Shown: piece by piece, positions 21,266 through 36,546 of the stretch
Position numbering within the stretch: the first letter of the stretch is position 1
How the letters are laid out: each line of letters opens with the position of its first letter
Assembly (NCBI GenBank): GCA_019694165.1
Contig: JAIBCL010000004.1
Span: 310,001 to 374,000, forward strand
Direction of reading: 5' to 3'
Source: Verrucomicrobiaceae bacterium
GTDB lineage: Bacteria; Verrucomicrobiota; Verrucomicrobiia; Verrucomicrobiales; Verrucomicrobiaceae
Length of the DNA: 64,000 nucleotides
Program-made: the position numbers and the translations under genes
The notes under the pieces: generated by a model
What the model was told of the DNA's origin: nothing
Databases searched by the model: none
Seen by the model: only the letters and a program-made list of their open reading frames with translations

Positions 21266-21837
21266 GGATTGGCGGAGCTTCCACCGGATGAAGGAGCAGG
21301 AGCCGCGGCCTGCTCCTGCGGAGGCGACTTGTCGTAGTCCACCAGGGTCACGTACCGCTCGCGGTAGCTCCCCTGCGCATCGAGGGATGCGCCGTTGCGC
21401 GGCTGGTTGCTGATGCGGATGCGCAGCCGCCTCAGATACGGGCTGGCACCGGTCTCATTCGGCAATGGCAGCCCGGCCAGCAGTTCCGCGCGCGTGCGAT
21501 ACACCACATCCGTGCTGGCCGCATCCACCCATGCGCCATTGCCGTCATAGGTGGATTCCTCCCGTCTGCCCACGAGGCTGTCCAGCTCGCTCCACGTTTT
21601 CATCTGCCAGGCCGCCGCCAGTTGCTGCACGATGCGCGCCTCGGCTTCATTGCGCTGCGCGGTCCGCAGCGATTTCAGCCCTTCCGGCAGCACGCCGATG
21701 AGAGCGAGAAGGGCGAATGAAGTGATGGCCAGGGCGATGAGCACCTCCGCCAGCGAGAAACCGCGCTGCGCACGCGGGGCGCCTGCGCAGCGCACGCTTC
21801 CCGCTCCCTGCCTCGTGCCCGTGTCTCCGTGCTTCAT
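21262..21837 (-). CDS. Verru_Chthon cassette protein B (pilin-like)
   Basis: 191 residues with the prepilin segment RGFSLAEVLIALAITSFALL at about residues 25-44, including Glu+5. It resembles GspI/PilV-type minor pilins and is about the expected size for cassette protein B. It overlaps gene A by 4 bases and gene C by 4 bases, so the four genes are a single translationally coupled unit. The C-terminus is rich in Ser, Pro and Ala. Confidence 0.82.
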   Translation of the reverse strand: MKHGDTGTRQGAGSVRCAGAPRAQRGFSLAEVLIALAITSFALLALIGVLPEGLKSLRTAQRNEAEARIVQQLAAAWQMKTWSELDSLVGRREESTYDGNGAWVDAASTDVVYRTRAELLAGLPLPNETGASPYLRRLRIRISNQPRNGASLDAQGSYRERYVTLVDYDKSPPQEQAAAPAPSSGGSSANP

Positions 21838-24800
21838 GGTGTGAAAGGCTGCCGGCTCACGATCCGGAAGCGGTAGTGGTCATCCAGCGCATCCGAAGCG
21901 CCCGCCTGCACGGCCATGTCAGGGATGTCCTTGTCATTCGGATCGAGGTAGCGCTCGATCACCGCGCTGCCGCGGCTGTCCGCAGTGATCTGGTCAGTCT
22001 GCAGGTCGAAGGAGTCCGCCGAGGTCGAGCGCGACTTGCGGATGATCTGCACGCGATAGTGCACCTGGAACACATTCGAGCGCGTGCAGAGCCGCGGATA
22101 AAGCTGCGCGTAGGGCGACTCGCGCGTGTTGTCCCCCGTGGCTTCAAAGGCATCCGTGGCATTGCCGGCGGCCCCATTCCACCAGTTGATCATCTTGTCG
22201 TGGGTCAGTCCGTTCGTGGGTTTCGCGCCGCCGTAGTCGAGGCTGCTGCCGGCATTCCCGGAGCTGGTGCCCGCGTCCGCCTCGCCGATGCGCTTCGGCA
22301 CCAGGAACATCTCGCAGATTTCCGAGGCGGTGCGGAACACGTCGCCCTTCTTGAAGCGCTCCTCCTCAAAACCGTTCAGCGTGGCCGCAGCGTTCACCTG
22401 ATAGCGGAACTCCTTGTCCGACACGCGCTGCGGATTCTTGTAGAATTGATCCCCCGCCGCCGCCGATGCATACGCCGCTGGCACCGCCGTGACGCGCACG
22501 CCGCGCAGCGCGGCATAGAGCGCCGTGTGCCGCTTGATGTAGGAGAAGGGCATGATCTCACAGTTCAGGTTCACCTTCCCCTCGGTGGCAAATCCGGCGC
22601 TGATCGGCCAGGGGTCCATCACCGGCATCCAGAAAAACTCCAGCCAGGTGTGGTCCGGCGGCGAGAGGAAGCCGAAGTGATCCTTCGCATCAAAACCGCC
22701 GCCGGCCTCGATCTGACGCGAGAGGGGATTCGGGCAAAACAGGAGCGTCTGCCAAGGACGCGAGCTGCCGTCGGCCCCGCTGACGCCCGGAGTGCGAGGA
22801 AAGATGCCTGTCGGCAGTGAACCAAAGGCGACGGCGGAAGCGATCTGCCGGTGAGGAGCCGCGGTGATGCCCGTCTCGTCAGGCTCCATGTCGCCGCCGC
22901 GCTGAAAGTAACCGCCCGTGTCCGTTGCCGCAGTCGCCGCCACTTCGGTCGGCTCATTGCCACTGTCCGGCTTGTCGATGCAGGGACCGTCCTCGATCAG
23001 GCCCGGCCCGTTGGTCCAGTCACCGAGGCGTCCGTTTACATCGACAGCACCGTTGAGCACGAGACCGGATTCACGCGGCGTGGAAACCACGGCGGGGGCG
23101 AAGCCCTTCGCGTAGGTGAGGCCGGGGACCAGCGGGCTGGCGGTGTCCGTCGTCGCCTGGAGCGTCGAGCTGGCGTCCGCCTTGCCGAACTGCTCGACAA
23201 GATGCGCGCCGCTGCGCAGCGAGTGCATCGCCCGCGGTTTCGTCTCGTCCTTCCCATCCGTCCCGGCCTTCAGACTGAAGCGGTCCTCCAGCGCCTTCGG
23301 CGATGGGAAGACGCAGCGCCAGTGGTCTTTCTCCGCGTCCGGATCACCATCGTAGGTGACCGGCGGACCGCCGCGCGTACCCAGCGCGGCGAGCAGCCGC
23401 AGATCTCCACCCCACGGCAGCGAGGGATCCGCCTCGACCGAGCGCACCACATCGCCTTTCAGGATGAGCGGCTGGCGCAGTTCATCGTTCACGGCGGTGA
23501 GCGTGAAGCGCTTCTCGATGTCGCCCGGATTGGTCGCCGTCACGTCGAGCCACGGAACAGGAATGTCGCACGCCGCAGGCAGGGGAATCCGCAGCGTCTG
23601 CACCACGTCATCGTCGGATGCGCCGCCGAAGGCGGAGAGTATCTCCACGGTCAGAGGTCCGCCGCGCAGGGTCACGGTTTCACTTTCCTTCTTCGGTACG
23701 GGCAGCGCCACGTCGAGACTGACGAAGGGGAAGACGCTGTTCTCGTCGCCGGCGAGTTTCCCGGGATCGCTTTTGGGATCGCCATTGGATTTGAGGAACT
23801 GGCCCGCCAGCCCGTTGAAGCATGTGGCGCCCTCGATGACCCTCGCTTTCTGCGTGCCGGAGGAGACGCAGCGGTTCGTGTTCGCGTAGCCGCTGCCGAA
23901 CAGCGCGCGGTTTTCGATCGTGAGGTTTTCGAGCCCCTTGATGCGATACCGCACGGCGGGCGTCGTGGCCGGCAGGCCCGGCACCGGGCTGCACGGCTCG
24001 AGCACGATGAACATGCGCAGGTGCGTGGTCTTGTCCGCCAATCCGTCGCCGTCGTCGTCCTCGTATTTCCCCTCCTTCTTTTCACCCCCCGTCGCCACGA
24101 AAACCAGCGCCAGCTCGGTGATGGTGGGGAAGCGCCCGAAGCCCCGCACCTGCCCCTCCTCGACGCCCACGACCATCGGCGCGGCCGAGTATTCGCCGAG
24201 TGAATTCGCCTGCGCGGCCTTCCGACCCGGCGGCAGATACGAGTAGGGGTCGCCCTCGTCGCGGTCGTCGTTGCCCGCATTCACGCCCCAGCGCAGCATG
24301 TCGAACATTGAAATGATGATCTGGTCCGAGTTCTTCGGCGCGCCGCGTGAGCCTCCGCCATACTTCGCCTCAAGCGATCCGCCGTAGCCGGGCATCGCCA
24401 TGCTCGCAAGATTCTGCAGATAGCCGATGATCTGCGCATTGCGGACGATCTTCGCGTCATCGCTCGTGCTCTGGGAAGATCCGGGATTCGCCTCGCCCAG
24501 CCACACGCTCGCGCGCTGCCAGTAGAATGGCCGTCCGCTCAACGTGGCCGCCATGGCAAGGCGGCGGTCAGTCTTCGTGCGCGGACCATCTCCCTCCTGC
24601 ACGGGCCAGAGGGAGATTTTCGGCCGGTTGAAAGGGTTCGTCTCAGGCGCGGCACTGTGCGTAGTGAGGAAGAAGCGCGCCTTGCGGATGTCGTCCTCCT
24701 TGAAGGTCTGCGCATCGCTCAGGCTGTCACCCTCCACGGTCATGGGGCTGCGCTTCGTGTCGAAGAACAGTTCGTCGATGGTCGAAAAAAGACGCTCCTG

Positions 24801-25994
24801 TTTCAGATTCACGCGCTCCGCCGGCGGCTGCGTGCCGTGGCCTGAGCCGCGGTCGCGGTTCGTGCTGCTGGAGGAGTCCGGCGTGCGCGGCAGCGGACGG
24901 TGATTCGACTCGACGTAGTCGAAGAACTTCGCAGCGTCGCTGTCGGTATTTTTGCGAAAGGCGCCGCCTGTGTTTGTGATGCCGGCCGGATCGGGCACGG
25001 GCGTGAAGGGGGTGGGAGCCGCCTGGTCGGACTCGGTGGCTGCATCACGGCCGAACGCCTGAAAAACCGGGCTCAACGCCGTGAAGGCCGGATGGCCGGC
25101 CTGACGGTGAAATTCATTCCGCGCCGGCTGGTAGGCGGCATAGGCGCGGTCCCTCCTGCTGTTTGCGCGCGGCACATCCCACGGAGCAGGCTCACTGGCG
25201 GTGTTCAGGTTGATCTTGCAGCTTTCGTCATCAGTCCAAAAGGCGATGCGGCCGACGATGGGATTCGTCGCCGAGGTCGTGCCGGCTTGGAACGTCGCCG
25301 TTGTGCTCGTGCCGCCGACGGGAGCGATGACACGTCCGTCCTTCAATACATAAAGCCAGGCCACGGGCATGGGCAGCGGCTGCGCTTCCGAAGCGCCCGG
25401 AGCGCCCGCGACCGCAAAACCCTCCACGAGTTTGAGCGCACCGGGATCGAGGATCGGATACACGAGGCGGCTCTTTGCCGTCGGAGCATTCGAGCTGCCG
25501 CTCCCCGCCTTCACCACAGCACGCAGCGGCACCGGCTCGTTCAGGTCCGTGTAGAGAGTGGGCGAGCCGCTCCACGCGGCAATCCGGTTTTTTTCAAGCG
25601 CTGCGTCGAAGTCCTGTCCCAGCACCACCATGTGGTCGGAGGAATAGAGCTTGAAAACATCGTAGAGCGCCGAGCGACCGCTGTCGTCCACATTGCCGCT
25701 CGCAAAACGCCGGATCAACCCGGGCTGCGAGGTCCAGATGAGGTCCGTCTTCAAGTCACCCGTCGCACGTCGGAGCTGAGAGATCACAAGCTGGGCAGGC
25801 AGGTCCGCCAGCGTGCGCACATCGATGATGTCGGCGGATGCCTTCGAGGCCCGGTCCTCATTGCGCGCCACGGTGAGCACAAGCAGCACGAGAAACGACA
25901 GCAGCGCAAGCGCCGCCAGCACGAGCATCAGTGCCATGCCCCGCTTGCGACGGACGACGTGCCCGGATGATGCCTCTGCTGCTGGGACGAACAC
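21834..25994 (-). CDS. Verru_Chthon cassette protein A (giant PilX/GspK-like protein)
   Basis: About 1,386 residues if it begins at GTG 25992-25994, or 1,367 from ATG 25935-25937. The GTG start is preferred because it keeps the basic leader RRKRG before the hydrophobic helix MALMLVLAALALLSFLVLLV, as in PilX/GspK-type pilins. The rest is a very large exported domain with many polar, Asp/Gly and aromatic motifs and no recognised enzyme signature. It leads the cassette and overlaps gene B by 4 bases. A longer frame running to 26555 is rejected because it crosses the divergent gene. Its size makes it a candidate tip or adhesin subunit. Confidence 0.8.
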   Translation of the reverse strand: MFVPAAEASSGHVVRRKRGMALMLVLAALALLSFLVLLVLTVARNEDRASKASADIIDVRTLADLPAQLVISQLRRATGDLKTDLIWTSQPGLIRRFASGNVDDSGRSALYDVFKLYSSDHMVVLGQDFDAALEKNRIAAWSGSPTLYTDLNEPVPLRAVVKAGSGSSNAPTAKSRLVYPILDPGALKLVEGFAVAGAPGASEAQPLPMPVAWLYVLKDGRVIAPVGGTSTTATFQAGTTSATNPIVGRIAFWTDDESCKINLNTASEPAPWDVPRANSRRDRAYAAYQPARNEFHRQAGHPAFTALSPVFQAFGRDAATESDQAAPTPFTPVPDPAGITNTGGAFRKNTDSDAAKFFDYVESNHRPLPRTPDSSSSTNRDRGSGHGTQPPAERVNLKQERLFSTIDELFFDTKRSPMTVEGDSLSDAQTFKEDDIRKARFFLTTHSAAPETNPFNRPKISLWPVQEGDGPRTKTDRRLAMAATLSGRPFYWQRASVWLGEANPGSSQSTSDDAKIVRNAQIIGYLQNLASMAMPGYGGSLEAKYGGGSRGAPKNSDQIIISMFDMLRWGVNAGNDDRDEGDPYSYLPPGRKAAQANSLGEYSAAPMVVGVEEGQVRGFGRFPTITELALVFVATGGEKKEGKYEDDDGDGLADKTTHLRMFIVLEPCSPVPGLPATTPAVRYRIKGLENLTIENRALFGSGYANTNRCVSSGTQKARVIEGATCFNGLAGQFLKSNGDPKSDPGKLAGDENSVFPFVSLDVALPVPKKESETVTLRGGPLTVEILSAFGGASDDDVVQTLRIPLPAACDIPVPWLDVTATNPGDIEKRFTLTAVNDELRQPLILKGDVVRSVEADPSLPWGGDLRLLAALGTRGGPPVTYDGDPDAEKDHWRCVFPSPKALEDRFSLKAGTDGKDETKPRAMHSLRSGAHLVEQFGKADASSTLQATTDTASPLVPGLTYAKGFAPAVVSTPRESGLVLNGAVDVNGRLGDWTNGPGLIEDGPCIDKPDSGNEPTEVAATAATDTGGYFQRGGDMEPDETGITAAPHRQIASAVAFGSLPTGIFPRTPGVSGADGSSRPWQTLLFCPNPLSRQIEAGGGFDAKDHFGFLSPPDHTWLEFFWMPVMDPWPISAGFATEGKVNLNCEIMPFSYIKRHTALYAALRGVRVTAVPAAYASAAAGDQFYKNPQRVSDKEFRYQVNAAATLNGFEEERFKKGDVFRTASEICEMFLVPKRIGEADAGTSSGNAGSSLDYGGAKPTNGLTHDKMINWWNGAAGNATDAFEATGDNTRESPYAQLYPRLCTRSNVFQVHYRVQIIRKSRSTSADSFDLQTDQITADSRGSAVIERYLDPNDKDIPDMAVQAGASDALDDHYRFRIVSRQPFTP

Positions 25995-26171
25995 AATGGT
26001 CCGATTGTATCCCCTCCCGGAGCAGTGTCGAGAAATGAAACCGTGCGCACGGTGGGCCGACAGGTACGCGACTCGCGGACAGCGTGAGGCGGAGCGGACG
26101 AAGAAATATGCAAAACTCCGGGTTCGTTTGTCATCCGTCCGCGCCACCAATTTGAGCACCTGCCAGCCGCC

Positions 26172-26903
26172 GTGAAGTTTTCCTCTGCAACCATAGTCGT
26201 CGTGATCTCGGGATCCATTCTGGGCGCGGCATCGGTCCGCGCCGACCAGCCGGCCGCAGCCGGTGCCGACCCGGACCTCCCCCAGTCGTTCGATGCCGCG
26301 ATGCTCACCTCCCTCGTCGAAAAGCCGCCCTTCAACCGGATCGTCAGCTTCGAGGACACCTACCTGCTCACGGGCGTGGCTTACGTGGAAGGCAAACCGC
26401 TGGCGACGCTCGTGAACAAGGAGACGAAACAGCGCTACGTCGTCGGTCAGGAGCCGAACGCACAGGGCTGGCATCTGGCGGCGGCGAGCGCGGGCCACGA
26501 TCCTCGCTACACCGAGGTGAAGCTCGTCATCGGCGACGAGGAAGTGGCGCTGCACTACACCGACGTGCTGCAGGCACCCGGGAAAAAATCTTCTTCATCA
26601 TCGTCAGGCAGCGGCCGTCGGCGTGAAGTCACGCCGGTGGACATTCACAAGCTCTCCGAATCCGAGTACCTGCGCAAAGATGAGAACGGCAAGACCTATG
26701 TCCGGGGATCGATCTACCTGCCCACCGAGGACCGGGATCGCTACTACAACAGCATGTCGAGCCCGGCGCGCGACCGCTTCCGCCAGTTGGTGCAGGACGC
26801 CCGCGACAAGATGTTCAGCTACACACCCGACCAGCGCGCAGCATTTGCCAAGAAGGCCTTCGACCAGGCGGAGGCAGAGGAGCGGGCAGGCAAGCTGCGC
26901 TAA
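26172..26903 (+). CDS. Hypothetical exported protein divergent from the Verru_Chthon cassette
   Basis: 243 residues starting at GTG 26172, with a signal peptide ending near ASVRA. A short beta-rich region (TGVAYVEGKPLATLVNKETK, then VVGQEPNAQGWHLA) resembles the small periplasmic HR/PDZ-type modules of type II secretion assembly proteins such as GspC or PilP. A serine-rich linker (residues about 138-146) and a charged helical C-terminus follow. It is transcribed divergently from the cassette with about 180 bases between starts, so shared control is possible. The function is not known; the secretion link is inference. Confidence 0.6.
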   Translation: MKFSSATIVVVISGSILGAASVRADQPAAAGADPDLPQSFDAAMLTSLVEKPPFNRIVSFEDTYLLTGVAYVEGKPLATLVNKETKQRYVVGQEPNAQGWHLAAASAGHDPRYTEVKLVIGDEEVALHYTDVLQAPGKKSSSSSSGSGRRREVTPVDIHKLSESEYLRKDENGKTYVRGSIYLPTEDRDRYYNSMSSPARDRFRQLVQDARDKMFSYTPDQRAAFAKKAFDQAEAEERAGKLR

Positions 26904-28451: not shown

Positions 28452-28563
28452 GATGTGCTGGCTGGTTCCGCGCGAGTGTGGCAGCCGGGAGCCCGCTGCG
28501 CAAAGCCTTCGACTGGATTCCCATTCCGTCCGCCTGGTCTCTGGCTTCGGCTGGTTGCTCCTG

Positions 28564-28600
28564 TCATCAAAACACGTTTTGACAAAACATGTTTGGATGA
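28564..28600. repeat. Palindromic repeat, upstream copy flanking the ATPase gene
   Basis: A 37-bp core TCATCAAAACACGTTTTGAC continuing into AAAACATGTTTGGATGA. It matches the copy at 30014-30050 at 35 of 37 positions and is itself largely palindromic around its centre. It ends 13 bases before the ATPase start codon, so it also overlaps the likely promoter and ribosome-binding region. Confidence 0.92.
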
Positions 28601-28613
28601 ACTACACTCCGGC

Positions 28614-30011
28614 ATGAGCAGCTTTCGAGGACGCAAACGCGAGGCCGCCGCGCTGGATGCGGCGTGGCGGGGAGGTGCGTCGGCTTTCATTCCGGTTTAC
28701 GGACGCCGGCGCGTGGGCAAGAGCGAGCTGATCGTCCACTTCATGGCCGGCAAGGGTGGCGTCTATTTCGTCGGCAAGCGCGCGCCGGGCGAGACGCAGC
28801 TCGCCGAGTTCCTGGAGACGGCCGCCCGCGCGCTGGACGAGCCCTTGCTTGCGCAGGCGCGCGTGAACGGCTGGCGCGATGCGCTCGATCTTGTGGTGAA
28901 GCGCTGGACCGGAAAACGAAAGCTTATCCTCGCGCTCGACGAATTTCAGTGGATGGCCGAGGCCGCGCCGGAGCTGCCCTCGGTGATCCAGGAGCTGTGG
29001 GACCGCCAGTGGGCGAAGTCGGGGCGCGTGATGCTCATCCTCTGCGGGTCGTATCTCGGCTTCATGGAGCGCGAGGTGCTGGGCAAGAAGAGCCCGCTCT
29101 TCGGCAGGCGCACCGCGCAGATTCTCTTGCGCCCTTTTCATCATCTCGAAGCGGCGGAGTTTCATCCGCGCTGGTCCGTCGCCGATCAGGCAAAGGCATA
29201 CGCGCTCTGCGGCGGCATCCCGATGTATCTGCTGGCCTTCGACGAGAAGCTCTCGATCGAGCAAAACATCACCACGCGCATCCTCGATGATCTCTCCATG
29301 CTCTCTCGCGAGCCGGAGTTTCTGCTGCGCGAGGAGCTGCGCGATCTGATGCCGTATCACGCCGTGCTCATGGCGCTGGCGCAGGGAAAGACCGCGCCGG
29401 CGCAATTGTCCAGCACCACCGGGATCGACGTGCGCGGCCTGAACTACCACCTCAACACGCTCGTGGAACTCGGCTACGTGCAGCGCCGTTATCCGCTCAC
29501 GGGCATCAAGCCGGCCGTGCGCTCCGTGCGCTACGCGCTGGATGATCCGTTCCTGCGCTTCTGGTTCCGCTTCGTCTTCCCGCATCAGAGCGTGCTGAAG
29601 CTGCTCGGCCCGCAGCGCGGCTTTGCGGAGGTGATCAAGCCCGGGATCGATGCCTACTACGGCCGCTGCTTCGAGCGCCTGTGCCGCGAGTGCCTGCCGA
29701 TGATCTATCACGATGAAGGCGTCCGCGCCGCGTTCGAGTGCGGAGAGTACTGGGACAAGGACGTGCAGATCGACGTGGTCGGCGTACGGCAGGACGGCTG
29801 GACGGACCTCGGCGAGTGCAAATGGGGCGACGTCGGCTCCATGAGCGCCCTCGCCGCCGAGCTGGAGTCAAAAATCCCGCGCTACCCGAACAAGCGGAAC
29901 GCCACCATCGGCCGCAGGCTCTTCGTGCGCTCCAGCAAGGCCCGCGCGAAGACGCCGGGCATCCGTGTTCACACACTGGATGACCTCTACTCACTGAAGG
30001 CGGCTCCGTAA
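28614..30011 (+). CDS. Archaeal-type ATPase with DUF234-like C-terminal nuclease domain
   Basis: 465 residues. P-loop GRRRVGKS at 30-37, Walker B ILALDEFQ near 107, and a sensor-like LILCGSYLGFMEREVLGKKS near 142 mark the archaeal ATPase group of the STAND/AAA+ class. A winged-helix region (about 250-300; LSSTTGIDVRGLNYHLNTLV) is followed by a DUF234-like domain. This ends in a PD-(D/E)xK pattern: D in VQIDVVGV near 384 and ECK near 400. ATG at 28614 starts on the conserved FRGRKRE N-terminus; an upstream frame of 187 codons is non-coding. The gene sits exactly between two matched 37-bp palindromes and nothing else. The activity, probably ATP-driven DNA binding or cleavage, is inferred. Confidence 0.85.
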   Translation: MSSFRGRKREAAALDAAWRGGASAFIPVYGRRRVGKSELIVHFMAGKGGVYFVGKRAPGETQLAEFLETAARALDEPLLAQARVNGWRDALDLVVKRWTGKRKLILALDEFQWMAEAAPELPSVIQELWDRQWAKSGRVMLILCGSYLGFMEREVLGKKSPLFGRRTAQILLRPFHHLEAAEFHPRWSVADQAKAYALCGGIPMYLLAFDEKLSIEQNITTRILDDLSMLSREPEFLLREELRDLMPYHAVLMALAQGKTAPAQLSSTTGIDVRGLNYHLNTLVELGYVQRRYPLTGIKPAVRSVRYALDDPFLRFWFRFVFPHQSVLKLLGPQRGFAEVIKPGIDAYYGRCFERLCRECLPMIYHDEGVRAAFECGEYWDKDVQIDVVGVRQDGWTDLGECKWGDVGSMSALAAELESKIPRYPNKRNATIGRRLFVRSSKARAKTPGIRVHTLDDLYSLKAAP

Positions 30012-30013
30012 TG

Positions 30014-30050
30014 TCATCAAAACACGTTTTGACGAAACATGTTTTGATGA
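30014..30050. repeat. Palindromic repeat, downstream copy flanking the ATPase gene
   Basis: The second copy starts 3 bases after the ATPase stop codon, in the same orientation as the first, with two mismatches in 37. Its two halves, TCATCAAAACACGTTTTGA and GAAACATGTTTTGATGA, are near inverted copies (32 of 37 positions symmetric). Confidence 0.92.
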
Positions 30051-30080
30051 AAGTACCACCGGCCGCCGCGTAATCGGCGC

Positions 30081-32084
30081 ATGACCATCCGCTTCTTCAT
30101 CGCCTCCTTCGCCGCCGGCGTGTGCGCCGCCGCTGATCTGCTTCCACCGCAACTGGAAGACCTCTACAAGACTGACACCGCCGCCGATGTGATCCCGCTC
30201 GATGGCGGAAAAAGCGCGATCTACGTGAGGCAGCGCGTGGATCCGAAGACTCGCGCACTGAAGCAATCGCTCTGGCGCGTGGATGAAAAGAGTGGCGTCG
30301 CGGCGGTGGAGGATGGTGAACCGGATGCATTCAGCCCGATGCTGTCGCCGGATGGAAAATGGATTTTGTTTTTGTCCACGCGCCCCTTCGCGGATGGCAT
30401 GCCGGCCTTTCAGCCCGTGCCACCGTACTCCGATCCAGCGGCGGACATCTGGCTGATGCCGGCCAGCGGCGGAAAAGCGGTTCCACTCGGCGGCAAGGGC
30501 AAGCCGTATGGCCGCGTGATCACGGACAAATTCTATGGCCGCGTGGCTTTTTCGCGCGATGGAAAGCAGCTCGTGTTCGTCGCGGATGACGGGCGCGATC
30601 CTCGCACGGAAGAGGAGAAGCGGAACAACGTGGTCATCGTTCGTGACGATCAGGGCGAGGGCTACGAAGGTTGCGGTCCAATGCAAATCTGGGTGGCGGA
30701 TTTGCTAGATGCACCAGGTGATATCGCCGCCGCAAAGATCACGAAGCTGACGACTGACGACTTCTGGTATGGCGATCCGCAGTGGTCACCGGACGGCTCG
30801 TTCATCGTGGTTCATGCCAACCGCAACCCGGAGCAGGAGTCCGTGCGCTACAGCGTCAATCACAACTACGACCTGTGGAAGATCACGCTCGCCGACAAAC
30901 GCATCGAGCAGCTCACGACAGGGCCGGGGCCGGAGTTTTCACCGCGCATTTCGCCGGATGGGAAGCGGGTCGTCTGCCTGAGTTCACCGCGACGCGGGCC
31001 GCACATGGACGTGTTCAATCTGATGATCGTCGATCTCGGGCCGGGCGGGCCGAAGTCGCGACTGCTCTTCGATCATCATGCCGGCGACGCAGCGAGGCCG
31101 CCGCATCTCTCGCCCACAACGCCCTTGCCGGACAACTGCTGGCGTGACGAGCATCTTGTGACTTTCACCGGCATCAGCGGCGTGAAAAATGTGGCTCAAC
31201 TCGTGGACATCGACGCAGGTCCGCAGGCCATCGAAGACAAGGTGCCGCCCTCGACTGCGCCGCGCCCAAAGTTGCCACCGGCCACTCCCGAGATTCCGCA
31301 ACGTCTTCGCGCGGAAGATGAAATCGTGCACTGGAAGAGCTTCGACGGTCTCGAGATCGAAGGGGTGCTCACGAAACCGCCAGCGTCCGTTGCAAAGCCG
31401 CCGTTCAAGCTTCTCGTGATGCCTCACGGCGGACCGCACCATCGCGCCACGGGCGGCGGAGGATTTGATGTGCAGTTTTTCTCCACGCGCGGCTTCGCCG
31501 TCTTCCAGCCGAACTTCCGCGGCTCGACGGGCTACGGGCTGAAGTTCCTCGACGCGGACCGCAACGACTTCGGCGGCGGCGATATGAAGGACATTCTCAC
31601 CGGCATCGACTTCCTCGTGCGCGAAGGCATCGCCGACGGCAGCCGGCAGTTTGTCTATGGCGTGAGCTACGGCGGCTACATGACGTCATGGCTGGTCGGC
31701 CACACGAACCAGTTCCGCGCCGCCGCCGCGCAAAACGCCGTGACGGATCTGAATGTGATGTGGCATTACAGCGACCTTCAGAGCTGGACCGAGTGGGACA
31801 TGAGCGGCCTCCCGTGGGAAGTGCCTGAGCGGATGCGAGAACACAGTCCGCTGACTTATGCGAACAAGGTGCGCACACCCACGCTCATCCTGCACTCGCT
31901 CAATGACCGCCGCTGCCCGATGCCGATGGGCCGCATGTTCCATCGAGCCTTACAGAAGAACGGCGTCGATACCCAGATGGTCATCTATCCCGACGAGGGT
32001 CACCCCATCAAACAACTGCCGCATCGCGAGGACGTGCTGCGTCGCGTGCTGGAGTGGTTTGAGGGGCATGACAAGGTGCAGTGA
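30081..32084 (+). CDS. S9-family prolyl oligopeptidase/acylaminoacyl peptidase
   Basis: 667-residue serine peptidase with a signal peptide (MTIRFFIASFAAGVCAA). The N-terminal two-thirds are a beta-propeller made of SPDG-type blades (FSPMLSPDGKWILFLS, WSPDGSFIVVHA, ISPDGKRVVCLS). The C-terminal alpha/beta hydrolase has the nucleophile in GVSYGGYM (Ser about 529), Asp about 609 in HSLNDRRCP and His about 641 in DEGHP. It cleaves short peptides, probably in the periplasm. It starts 31 bases after the ATPase palindrome and is on the same strand but probably has its own promoter. Confidence 0.92.
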   Translation: MTIRFFIASFAAGVCAAADLLPPQLEDLYKTDTAADVIPLDGGKSAIYVRQRVDPKTRALKQSLWRVDEKSGVAAVEDGEPDAFSPMLSPDGKWILFLSTRPFADGMPAFQPVPPYSDPAADIWLMPASGGKAVPLGGKGKPYGRVITDKFYGRVAFSRDGKQLVFVADDGRDPRTEEEKRNNVVIVRDDQGEGYEGCGPMQIWVADLLDAPGDIAAAKITKLTTDDFWYGDPQWSPDGSFIVVHANRNPEQESVRYSVNHNYDLWKITLADKRIEQLTTGPGPEFSPRISPDGKRVVCLSSPRRGPHMDVFNLMIVDLGPGGPKSRLLFDHHAGDAARPPHLSPTTPLPDNCWRDEHLVTFTGISGVKNVAQLVDIDAGPQAIEDKVPPSTAPRPKLPPATPEIPQRLRAEDEIVHWKSFDGLEIEGVLTKPPASVAKPPFKLLVMPHGGPHHRATGGGGFDVQFFSTRGFAVFQPNFRGSTGYGLKFLDADRNDFGGGDMKDILTGIDFLVREGIADGSRQFVYGVSYGGYMTSWLVGHTNQFRAAAAQNAVTDLNVMWHYSDLQSWTEWDMSGLPWEVPERMREHSPLTYANKVRTPTLILHSLNDRRCPMPMGRMFHRALQKNGVDTQMVIYPDEGHPIKQLPHREDVLRRVLEWFEGHDKVQ

Positions 32085-35520: not shown

Positions 35521-36546
35521 ATGCCTGCGAAGAACAGCAATGCCTCCAAGTCTGGCGGATCCAAGAAGCCCGCCAAGGTCGTGAAGAAGCCTGTGAAAGC
35601 GGTGAAGGCGAAACCTGTTTCCAAGGCCGCGAAGAGCGCACCGAAAGGAAAGAAGCCCCCAGCCCCCGTGAAGAAATCCGCGAAACCAGCAGCCAGCAAG
35701 AAAACAAAAGCCAAGCCCGCGAAAGCGGCGAAACCCGCCAAGGCCGCAAAGCCGGCCAAGGCACCAAAGGCGGTCAAACCCGCCAAAGCACCGAAGCCGG
35801 TCACCACCGTGAAGGCGGCCAAACCGCAGCCTGCCGCGGCACCGGCAAAGCCCGCTCCGGAACCGGCGGCCCCGCCCAAAGACACCGCGCCGCCGAAGAA
35901 GCGCTCTGGATCCTCGAAGCCTGAGCCCATCGTGCCGGTGAAGGCGCTGCACTTTGCGCCGCTCAAGCCCACGCCGCGCCACAAGCCGGAGGAAGTGGGC
36001 GCCACGATCGAAGTGGCGAAAGGTCCGGTAAAGTGGACGCCATTTTTGAAAAAGCAGAAACAGCGCCTCATCGAACTGCGGGACACGCTGCTGAACCTGA
36101 TCGAGGGCGTGTCGCAGGAGAGCCTGCGCCAGCGCGCGGAAGGCGGCGAGGCCTCCGCCTTCGGCATGCATCAGGCGGACGCCGGCAGCGATGCCTACGA
36201 CCGCGACTTCGCACTCAGCCTCCTGAGCCAGGAGCAGGACGCGCTCAATGAAATCAACGAGGCGCTCACGCGCATGGAGAACGGCACTTACGGCATCTGT
36301 GAGATGTCGGGGAAGAGAATCCCGGACGTGCGCCTCGAGGCGCTGCCCTTCACGCGTTTTACGGTCGAGTGCCAGGAGCGCATCGAGCGCCAGCAGATGG
36401 GTGGCCGCGGCCGGGTGCCCGTGCGCTCGCTCTTCGGTCTCGATGAGGCTGCGGACGAGTCCGGCGAGGACGATGCCGAGGAGGAGACGACTTCCGGCTC
36501 CCGGCGGGATGCGAACAGCGAATCGCTTGACTTCGCAAAGGAGTAA
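35521..36546 (+). CDS. DksA/TraR-like protein with a histone H1-like Lys/Ala/Pro tail
   Basis: 341 residues. The first about 140 residues are made almost wholly of K, A and P in repeats such as PAKAAKPAKAAKPAKAPKA, like a histone H1 tail. Residues about 175-310 form the DksA-like part: a coiled-coil region, then NGTYGICEMSGKRIPDVRLE and FTVECQE. The zinc-finger spacing C-x2-C-x17-C-x2-C is kept, but the second and third positions are Ser263 and Thr281, leaving Cys260 and Cys284. It could bind DNA through the tail and RNA polymerase through the coiled coil; both are inference. It is 20 bases upstream of rpmG. Confidence 0.82.
   Translation: MPAKNSNASKSGGSKKPAKVVKKPVKAVKAKPVSKAAKSAPKGKKPPAPVKKSAKPAASKKTKAKPAKAAKPAKAAKPAKAPKAVKPAKAPKPVTTVKAAKPQPAAAPAKPAPEPAAPPKDTAPPKKRSGSSKPEPIVPVKALHFAPLKPTPRHKPEEVGATIEVAKGPVKWTPFLKKQKQRLIELRDTLLNLIEGVSQESLRQRAEGGEASAFGMHQADAGSDAYDRDFALSLLSQEQDALNEINEALTRMENGTYGICEMSGKRIPDVRLEALPFTRFTVECQERIERQQMGGRGRVPVRSLFGLDEAADESGEDDAEEETTSGSRRDANSESLDFAKE

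Follow-up and report, generated by a model that had tools for sequence, protein, structure and literature searches.

PDC-S27, a putative defence candidate in PADLOC-DB, is an ATPase fused to a PD-(D/E)XK member; its published description lists 3503 in archaea and 4562 in bacteria, states that antiviral validation is pending for most PDC candidates and, in the sections that deal with this candidate, mentions no shared operator and no repeat-gene-repeat layout (NAR 2026 gkag225; PMC12988326). These PDC-S27/DUF234 ATPases are common, with thousands of copies in bacteria and archaea. One of them is encoded in the 64,000-nucleotide stretch of a Verrucomicrobiaceae genome analysed here (positions 310,001 to 374,000 of contig JAIBCL010000004.1; hereafter, the window), where its gene stands between two copies of a palindromic repeat. 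We consider it rather probable that this gene and its private DNA site form a self-contained cassette, which would regulate itself and be gained and lost as a unit. A cis-element with a fixed 15-bp geometry and a fast-changing sequence, as described below, predicts that such ATPases have a DNA ligand and an oligomeric arrangement, that they act in an autoregulatory circuit, and that one residue sets their specificity.

The AlphaFold2 model of the window protein is confident (predicted local distance difference test [pLDDT] score, 93.4). Its residues 1 to 320 are closest to the archaeal ATPases PABY2304 (2qen; Z 21.3, root mean square deviation [rmsd] 3.3 over 298) and SSO1545 (2fna; Z 19.0, rmsd 3.7 over 292), which share the ATPase and winged-helix fold and rank ahead of Orc/Cdc6, NLR, MalT, MuB, and TnsC; the match is limited to this part of the model, with the nuclease domain outside it. 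MalT (ATPase domain structure 8bob; Z 14.1, rmsd 3.8 over 208) and IniR, an SSO1545-like ATPase that binds the iniBAC promoter (PMC5760070), are STAND-type (signal transduction ATPases with numerous domains) regulators and resemble the window protein in their ATPase-gated binding of a DNA site, which for the latter is predicted. They regulate metabolic or stress operons via other DNA-binding domains, whereas the window protein has its site on its own promoter and carries a C-terminal nuclease domain. TnsC (7plh; Z 13.2, rmsd 2.9 over 201), MuB (8xvb; Z 13.6, rmsd 3.0 over 209), and archaeal Orc2 (1w5t; Z 14.6, rmsd 3.6 over 296) are similar in the ATPase fold only. TnsC/MuB and Orc/Cdc6 are oligomeric DNA-binding ATPases, whereas neither a partner transposase nor an origin function was found for the window protein. 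In REP/RAYT (repetitive extragenic palindrome/REP-associated tyrosine transposase) and IS200/IS605 elements, a gene is bracketed by short palindromes; the window unit differs from them in having neither an HUH transposase domain nor dispersed repeat copies. The protein family and the fold class are already known; for the shared 15-bp operator and the repeat-gene-repeat cassette, a limited open-access literature search found no earlier description, nor did it find one of a palindrome-flanked DUF234 ATPase.

The two repeats of the window are in direct orientation and identical at 38 of 40 positions (Table 1). Each is a 37-bp palindrome that consists of two overlapping palindromic boxes of ~16 bp at a 15-bp pitch, and Tandem Repeats Finder (TRF) reports a period of 15 at 30020-30052. 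The initial annotation, which framed the palindromes as 28564-28600 and 30014-30050 (35 of 37 positions identical), described the gene as packed between them, and this layout is confirmed: the left palindrome ends 13 nt before the ATG, and the right one follows directly after the stop codon, at a distance of 2 nt. At up to 3 mismatches, the box is found at 4 places in the window, all of them inside the two repeats (0.38 expected; none of 100 shuffles reached 4). When the 7.8-Mb genome (66 contigs) was searched by BLAST with the complete 1.5-kb unit, no other copy was found, only the unit and the reverse self-matches of its two repeats, and a genome-wide search for the box at 2 mismatches returned 3 other weak single places versus 3 per strand in a reversed-pattern control. 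An Rfam scan of the window found no element.

Table 1. Features of the repeat-gene-repeat unit and its surroundings (window coordinates)
Feature	Position	Strand	Description
Left repeat	28562..28601	+	37-bp palindrome with two palindromic boxes at 15-bp pitch; proposed autoregulatory operator
Left repeat box 1	28567..28582	+	TCAAAACACGTTTTGA
Left repeat box 2	28582..28597	+	ACAAAACATGTTTGGA
Promoter-like site TTGACA-18-TACACT	28579..28608	+	-35 inside left repeat; consensus match only
ATPase-nuclease gene	28614..30011	+	465 aa; STAND-like ATPase - winged helix - PD-(D/E)XK (DUF234); PDC-S27 candidate family
ATPase_2 domain	28626..29234	+	aa 5-207; Walker A GRRRVGKS, Walker B LDEFQW
Winged helix	29355..29489	+	aa 248-292, with the recognition helix at aa 273-286; R274 varies with operator type
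DUF234 / PD-(D/E)XK nuclease-fold domain	29562..30008	+	D387, E401, K403 conserved
Right repeat	30012..30051	+	second copy of left repeat, directly 3' of stop codon
Right repeat boxes	30017-30032 and 30032-30047	+	palindromic boxes at 15-bp pitch
Neighbour gene, S9 prolyl oligopeptidase-like	30081..32084	+	outside cassette

Many of the genomes compared here are metagenome-assembled genomes (MAGs), the sets are not phylogenetically independent, and the E-values and counts come from local collections. The open reading frame (ORF) of the ATPase gene is intact, and its product matches the Pfam families ATPase_2 (48.8 bits; cut-off, 33.2) and DUF234 (59.7 bits; cut-off, 22.5), with a MarR/ArsR-like winged helix between them. 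The PADLOC profile of PDC-S27 aligns with residues 1 to 405 of the protein (profile positions 1 to 413 of 474; E value, 3.8e-54), which places it in that family. Among the 53 sequences over which residue conservation was counted, the Walker residues G30, G35, K36, D109, and E110 are invariant, as are the Asp and Glu of the nuclease motif, and its Lys is present in at least 90%. When the C-terminal 137 residues are modelled alone, the top matches are mostly PD-(D/E)XK enzymes (Z about 8 to 9, many of them tied); the matches include McrC, Cdn1, PaqCI, Can2, MspJI, EndoMS, and Card1. The domain order is an archaeal-type (STAND-like) ATPase, followed by a winged helix and then by a PD-(D/E)XK nuclease-fold domain; Pfam, the conserved motifs, and the fold matches agree with the initial annotation, which had read the protein as a combination of P-loop ATPase, winged helix, and PD-(D/E)xK-type end. 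Judging from its fold and motif, the protein probably cuts DNA. No transposase or recombinase domain is found among its Pfam matches.

The promoter-like site at the left repeat matches the sigma-70-like consensus at 10 of 12 positions (0.2 expected), and the ATG lies only 5 nt after the -10 hexamer, which would make the transcript near-leaderless. A conserved site that overlaps the gene's own promoter and a helix-turn-helix (HTH) domain are both present, as expected of an autoregulated DNA-binding regulator, and the left repeat is most likely the autoregulatory operator of the ATPase gene. A repeat or palindrome near the start codon is found in most of the homologs first recovered. In a close set of 80 homologs, which represent several phyla at identities of about 50% and above, the best upstream self-match has a lag of 15 bp in 70 of the 80, versus 2 of 74 downstream control stretches, and the mean autocorrelation upstream of the start is 0.42 at that lag. 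The sequence of the box varies among homologs (CTTG[AT]C, GACTCA, CAAAAC, and others) and the pitch is constant. Of 16 remote homologs, 14 (one of them a tie) again have 15 bp as their best lag; these homologs come from plasmids of haloarchaea, Fusobacteria, Selenomonas (Firmicutes), rhizobia (Alphaproteobacteria), Protochlamydia (Chlamydiota), and Rhodothermus (Rhodothermota). Because the boxes recur at this fixed pitch, the protein is probably oligomeric on DNA. R274 lies at the beginning of the predicted recognition helix. This position holds Arg or Lys in all 51 genes with the CTTG[AT]C box and Gly, Ser, or Ala in 5 of the 6 genes with the GACTCA box, which fall in at least two clades (Fisher test, 8e-6, with kinship not corrected for). 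This is indirect evidence, suggesting that the protein reads its own repeat.

In the proposed mechanism, the repeat is a well-supported candidate operator: the winged helix would bind it, probably as an oligomer, and the gene's own promoter would be repressed. ATP and a trigger would then switch the STAND-like ATPase, and the PD-(D/E)XK domain, as its fold and motif suggest, would cut nucleic acid, as in a defence effector. By comparison with the sister branch described below, the gene with its flanking repeats might move between genomes as a cassette; it would be found at various loci, the homology stopping at the repeats, and could vanish, leaving a single repeat. Its gain and loss would be either catalysed by the protein acting on the repeats or the result of ordinary recombination between the two copies.

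The sister branch (branch B) is about 27% identical to the branch of the window protein (branch A) and includes 10 genes in the 68 family genomes. All 10 have a palindrome of ~45 bp on both sides; the right one overlaps the stop codon in 10 of 10, and the left one abuts the ATG in 9 of 10. One of these units is found in the window's own genome (L140; G000:C30:210583-211980), with the same repeat-gene-repeat layout and 45-bp palindromes that are unrelated to those of the window. Branch-B units at different loci show a gene identity of about 0.70 and repeat identities of 0.59 to 0.94, with near-random similarity just outside; homogenisation of the left and right copies within units is not clear (0.867 within versus 0.82 to 0.87 between). 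Downstream of hisS, related genomes display three states of the same site: no repeat (L174), one repeat without the gene (L167 and L165, the solo repeat of L165 being a different variant from that of L167), and the complete repeat-gene-repeat unit (L145 and L143). Loss of exactly one repeat together with the gene, which the initial annotation had anticipated, is accordingly seen in branch B. Solo repeats are also found in genomes without a branch-B gene. In L145 and L167, just after hisS, the left repeat is preceded at a distance of a few bases by a half-repeat remnant (GAAAATC), and L146 carries two full repeats in tandem upstream of its gene, as if several rounds of insertion and loss had taken place.

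In the subfamily of the window protein, transfer is seen at the junction of rumA and an iron-containing alcohol dehydrogenase (ADH) gene. At least 9 relatives have these two genes directly overlapping, and several others have them side by side with no ATPase gene; three genomes carry one repeat and the ATPase gene between the two, and the junction is empty in at least ten relatives. Between two of the genomes, the nucleotide identity of the ATPase gene is 95.2%, compared with 81.1% for rumA and 87.6% for ADH, and the excess over rumA indicates that the ATPase gene was transferred horizontally. No match to the window subfamily is found in IMG/VR; remote homologs are present in 8 phage and 127 plasmid records, all at <60% identity. 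Scattered copies of the repeats are absent from the 68 genomes, the exceptions being a single strict solo copy, in G024, and the two imperfect ones at hisS. The copies track ATPase genes, and a dispersed REP- or MITE-like (miniature inverted-repeat transposable element) repeat was rejected. The initial annotation took the near-identity of the two window copies as a sign of recent movement or selection; by itself, it does not imply recent movement: the left repeat is identical to those of relatives at 36 to 38 of 40 positions even where the gene is only 81% identical, so the repeat is constrained, and the likeness of its two copies is no proof of a recent event. Constraint accounts for this likeness no less than recent movement does.

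Several observations weigh against the reading of the locus as a cassette. The right-hand copy is rare in the window's subfamily, being present at 3 of 78 loci (L050, L082, and L089) and in the window, and it therefore cannot be essential to the gene; close homologs of the window protein (81 to 85% amino acid identity) have the upstream copy only, so the bracket is not obligatory. At the rumA-ADH junction, a single repeat accompanies the branch-A insertion. No empty site was found for the window's own locus, and the TIM-barrel neighbour there has no relative closer than 62% identity. The comparisons of occupied and empty sites revealed neither a target-site duplication nor a circular form. Branch-B repeats lack the 15-bp direct pitch, so the role of the repeat may differ between the two branches. 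The association of R274 with the box type may partly reflect shared ancestry, as the test ignores kinship. Finally, the binding, the regulation, and the nuclease activity are all predicted. Two other loci scored above the control for flank repeats and were not counted: L083, because of its GC-rich flanking sequence, and L058, because of an unrelated palindrome. In the latter, a deltaproteobacterial MAG, this different, TGCTGGTTCCCAAACTCCAATTTGGGAACCAGCA-like palindrome is found on both sides of the gene.

A narrower explanation, possible but rather doubtful in our estimate, treats the left repeat as an autoregulatory operator and the right one as its functional or accidental duplicate (an insulator, a roadblock, or a control site of the downstream gene), with the gene undergoing only ordinary horizontal transfer. 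The near-universal upstream pitch and the rarity of the downstream copy in the window subfamily fit this explanation, as does the fact that the repeats of relatives match both window copies equally (37/37, 36/36, and 38/38 of 40), as if both were constrained. However, a role of the right copy as native operator of the S9 peptidase gene was rejected: the site is absent before the orthologs in G038, G008, and G064, and no recognisable -10 hexamer is found 15 to 19 nt beyond it. Moreover, in branch B, repeats are found on both sides in 10 of 10 units at several loci, and the solo repeats occur in genomes that lack the branch-B gene, where an operator would be useless. Of the two options in the initial annotation, an operator copied to both sides is supported in part, by the position of the left copy over a near-leaderless promoter and by the family-wide pitch. 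The right copy might instead be a transcription-termination or mRNA-end hairpin that merely resembles the left one. Its predicted RNA fold is strong (-18.1 kcal/mol, z -4.3; in branch B, -27.5 kcal/mol, z -8.8), but it matches the left copy in sequence (38 of 40), beyond what structure requires; its AT-rich composition and the absence of a T run after the window copy also speak against this role, which is very improbable.

The other option, a minimal mobile unit, is likewise supported in part, by the gain and loss of the cassette in branch B, by the association of the repeat copies with ATPase genes, and by the horizontal transfer; catalysis by the protein itself would be a further, hypothetical step. 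In its full form, the ATPase-nuclease would recognise and cut its flanking palindromes and catalyse its own movement. The repeat-gene-repeat layout with sharp homology boundaries at several loci, the empty sites with exactly one repeat remaining, and the intact ATPase and nuclease motifs are what such an autonomous element would show. It is nevertheless unlikely, given the lack of a Pfam recombinase or transposase domain, the few copies per genome without dispersed nonautonomous repeats, and the single-repeat insertions at rumA-ADH. The branch-B loss leaves one repeat, and passive recombination between the 45-bp copies would explain it without catalysis by a dedicated enzyme. A tandem duplication, in which operator and gene were doubled head to tail and the second gene was then deleted, leaving its operator behind, would account for L050, where the downstream copy carries the upstream flank and the promoter region almost to the start codon, with no second gene. 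It is quite improbable as a general explanation: random junctions would not be expected to place the right copy 0 to 2 nt after the stop codon (window, L082, and L089) or overlapping it in 10 of 10 branch-B units, and the sequence beyond the right repeat in L050, L082, and L089 shows no remnants of a second gene. Returning to the self-contained cassette, if its repeat-gene-repeat form were also self-mobile, it would represent a new type of minimal selfish or defence cassette. More tentatively still, and against our own expectation, such units might form a new class of one-gene mobile cassettes, in which an ATPase-winged helix-nuclease protein recognises its own palindromes and employs them as operator and recombination ends alike; the cassettes would spread among bacteria and archaea, each lineage evolving a private site (at 15-bp pitch in most).

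Elsewhere in the window, short coding-like tandem repeats with periods of 18, 21, and 27 and rich in Ala, Lys, and Pro codons are found at 35737-35867. A very long ORF occupies positions 21834-26555 on the minus strand; its inner part, which starts near MALMLVLAALALLSFLVLLVL, presumably resembles a pseudopilin-type secretion protein of Verrucomicrobia.
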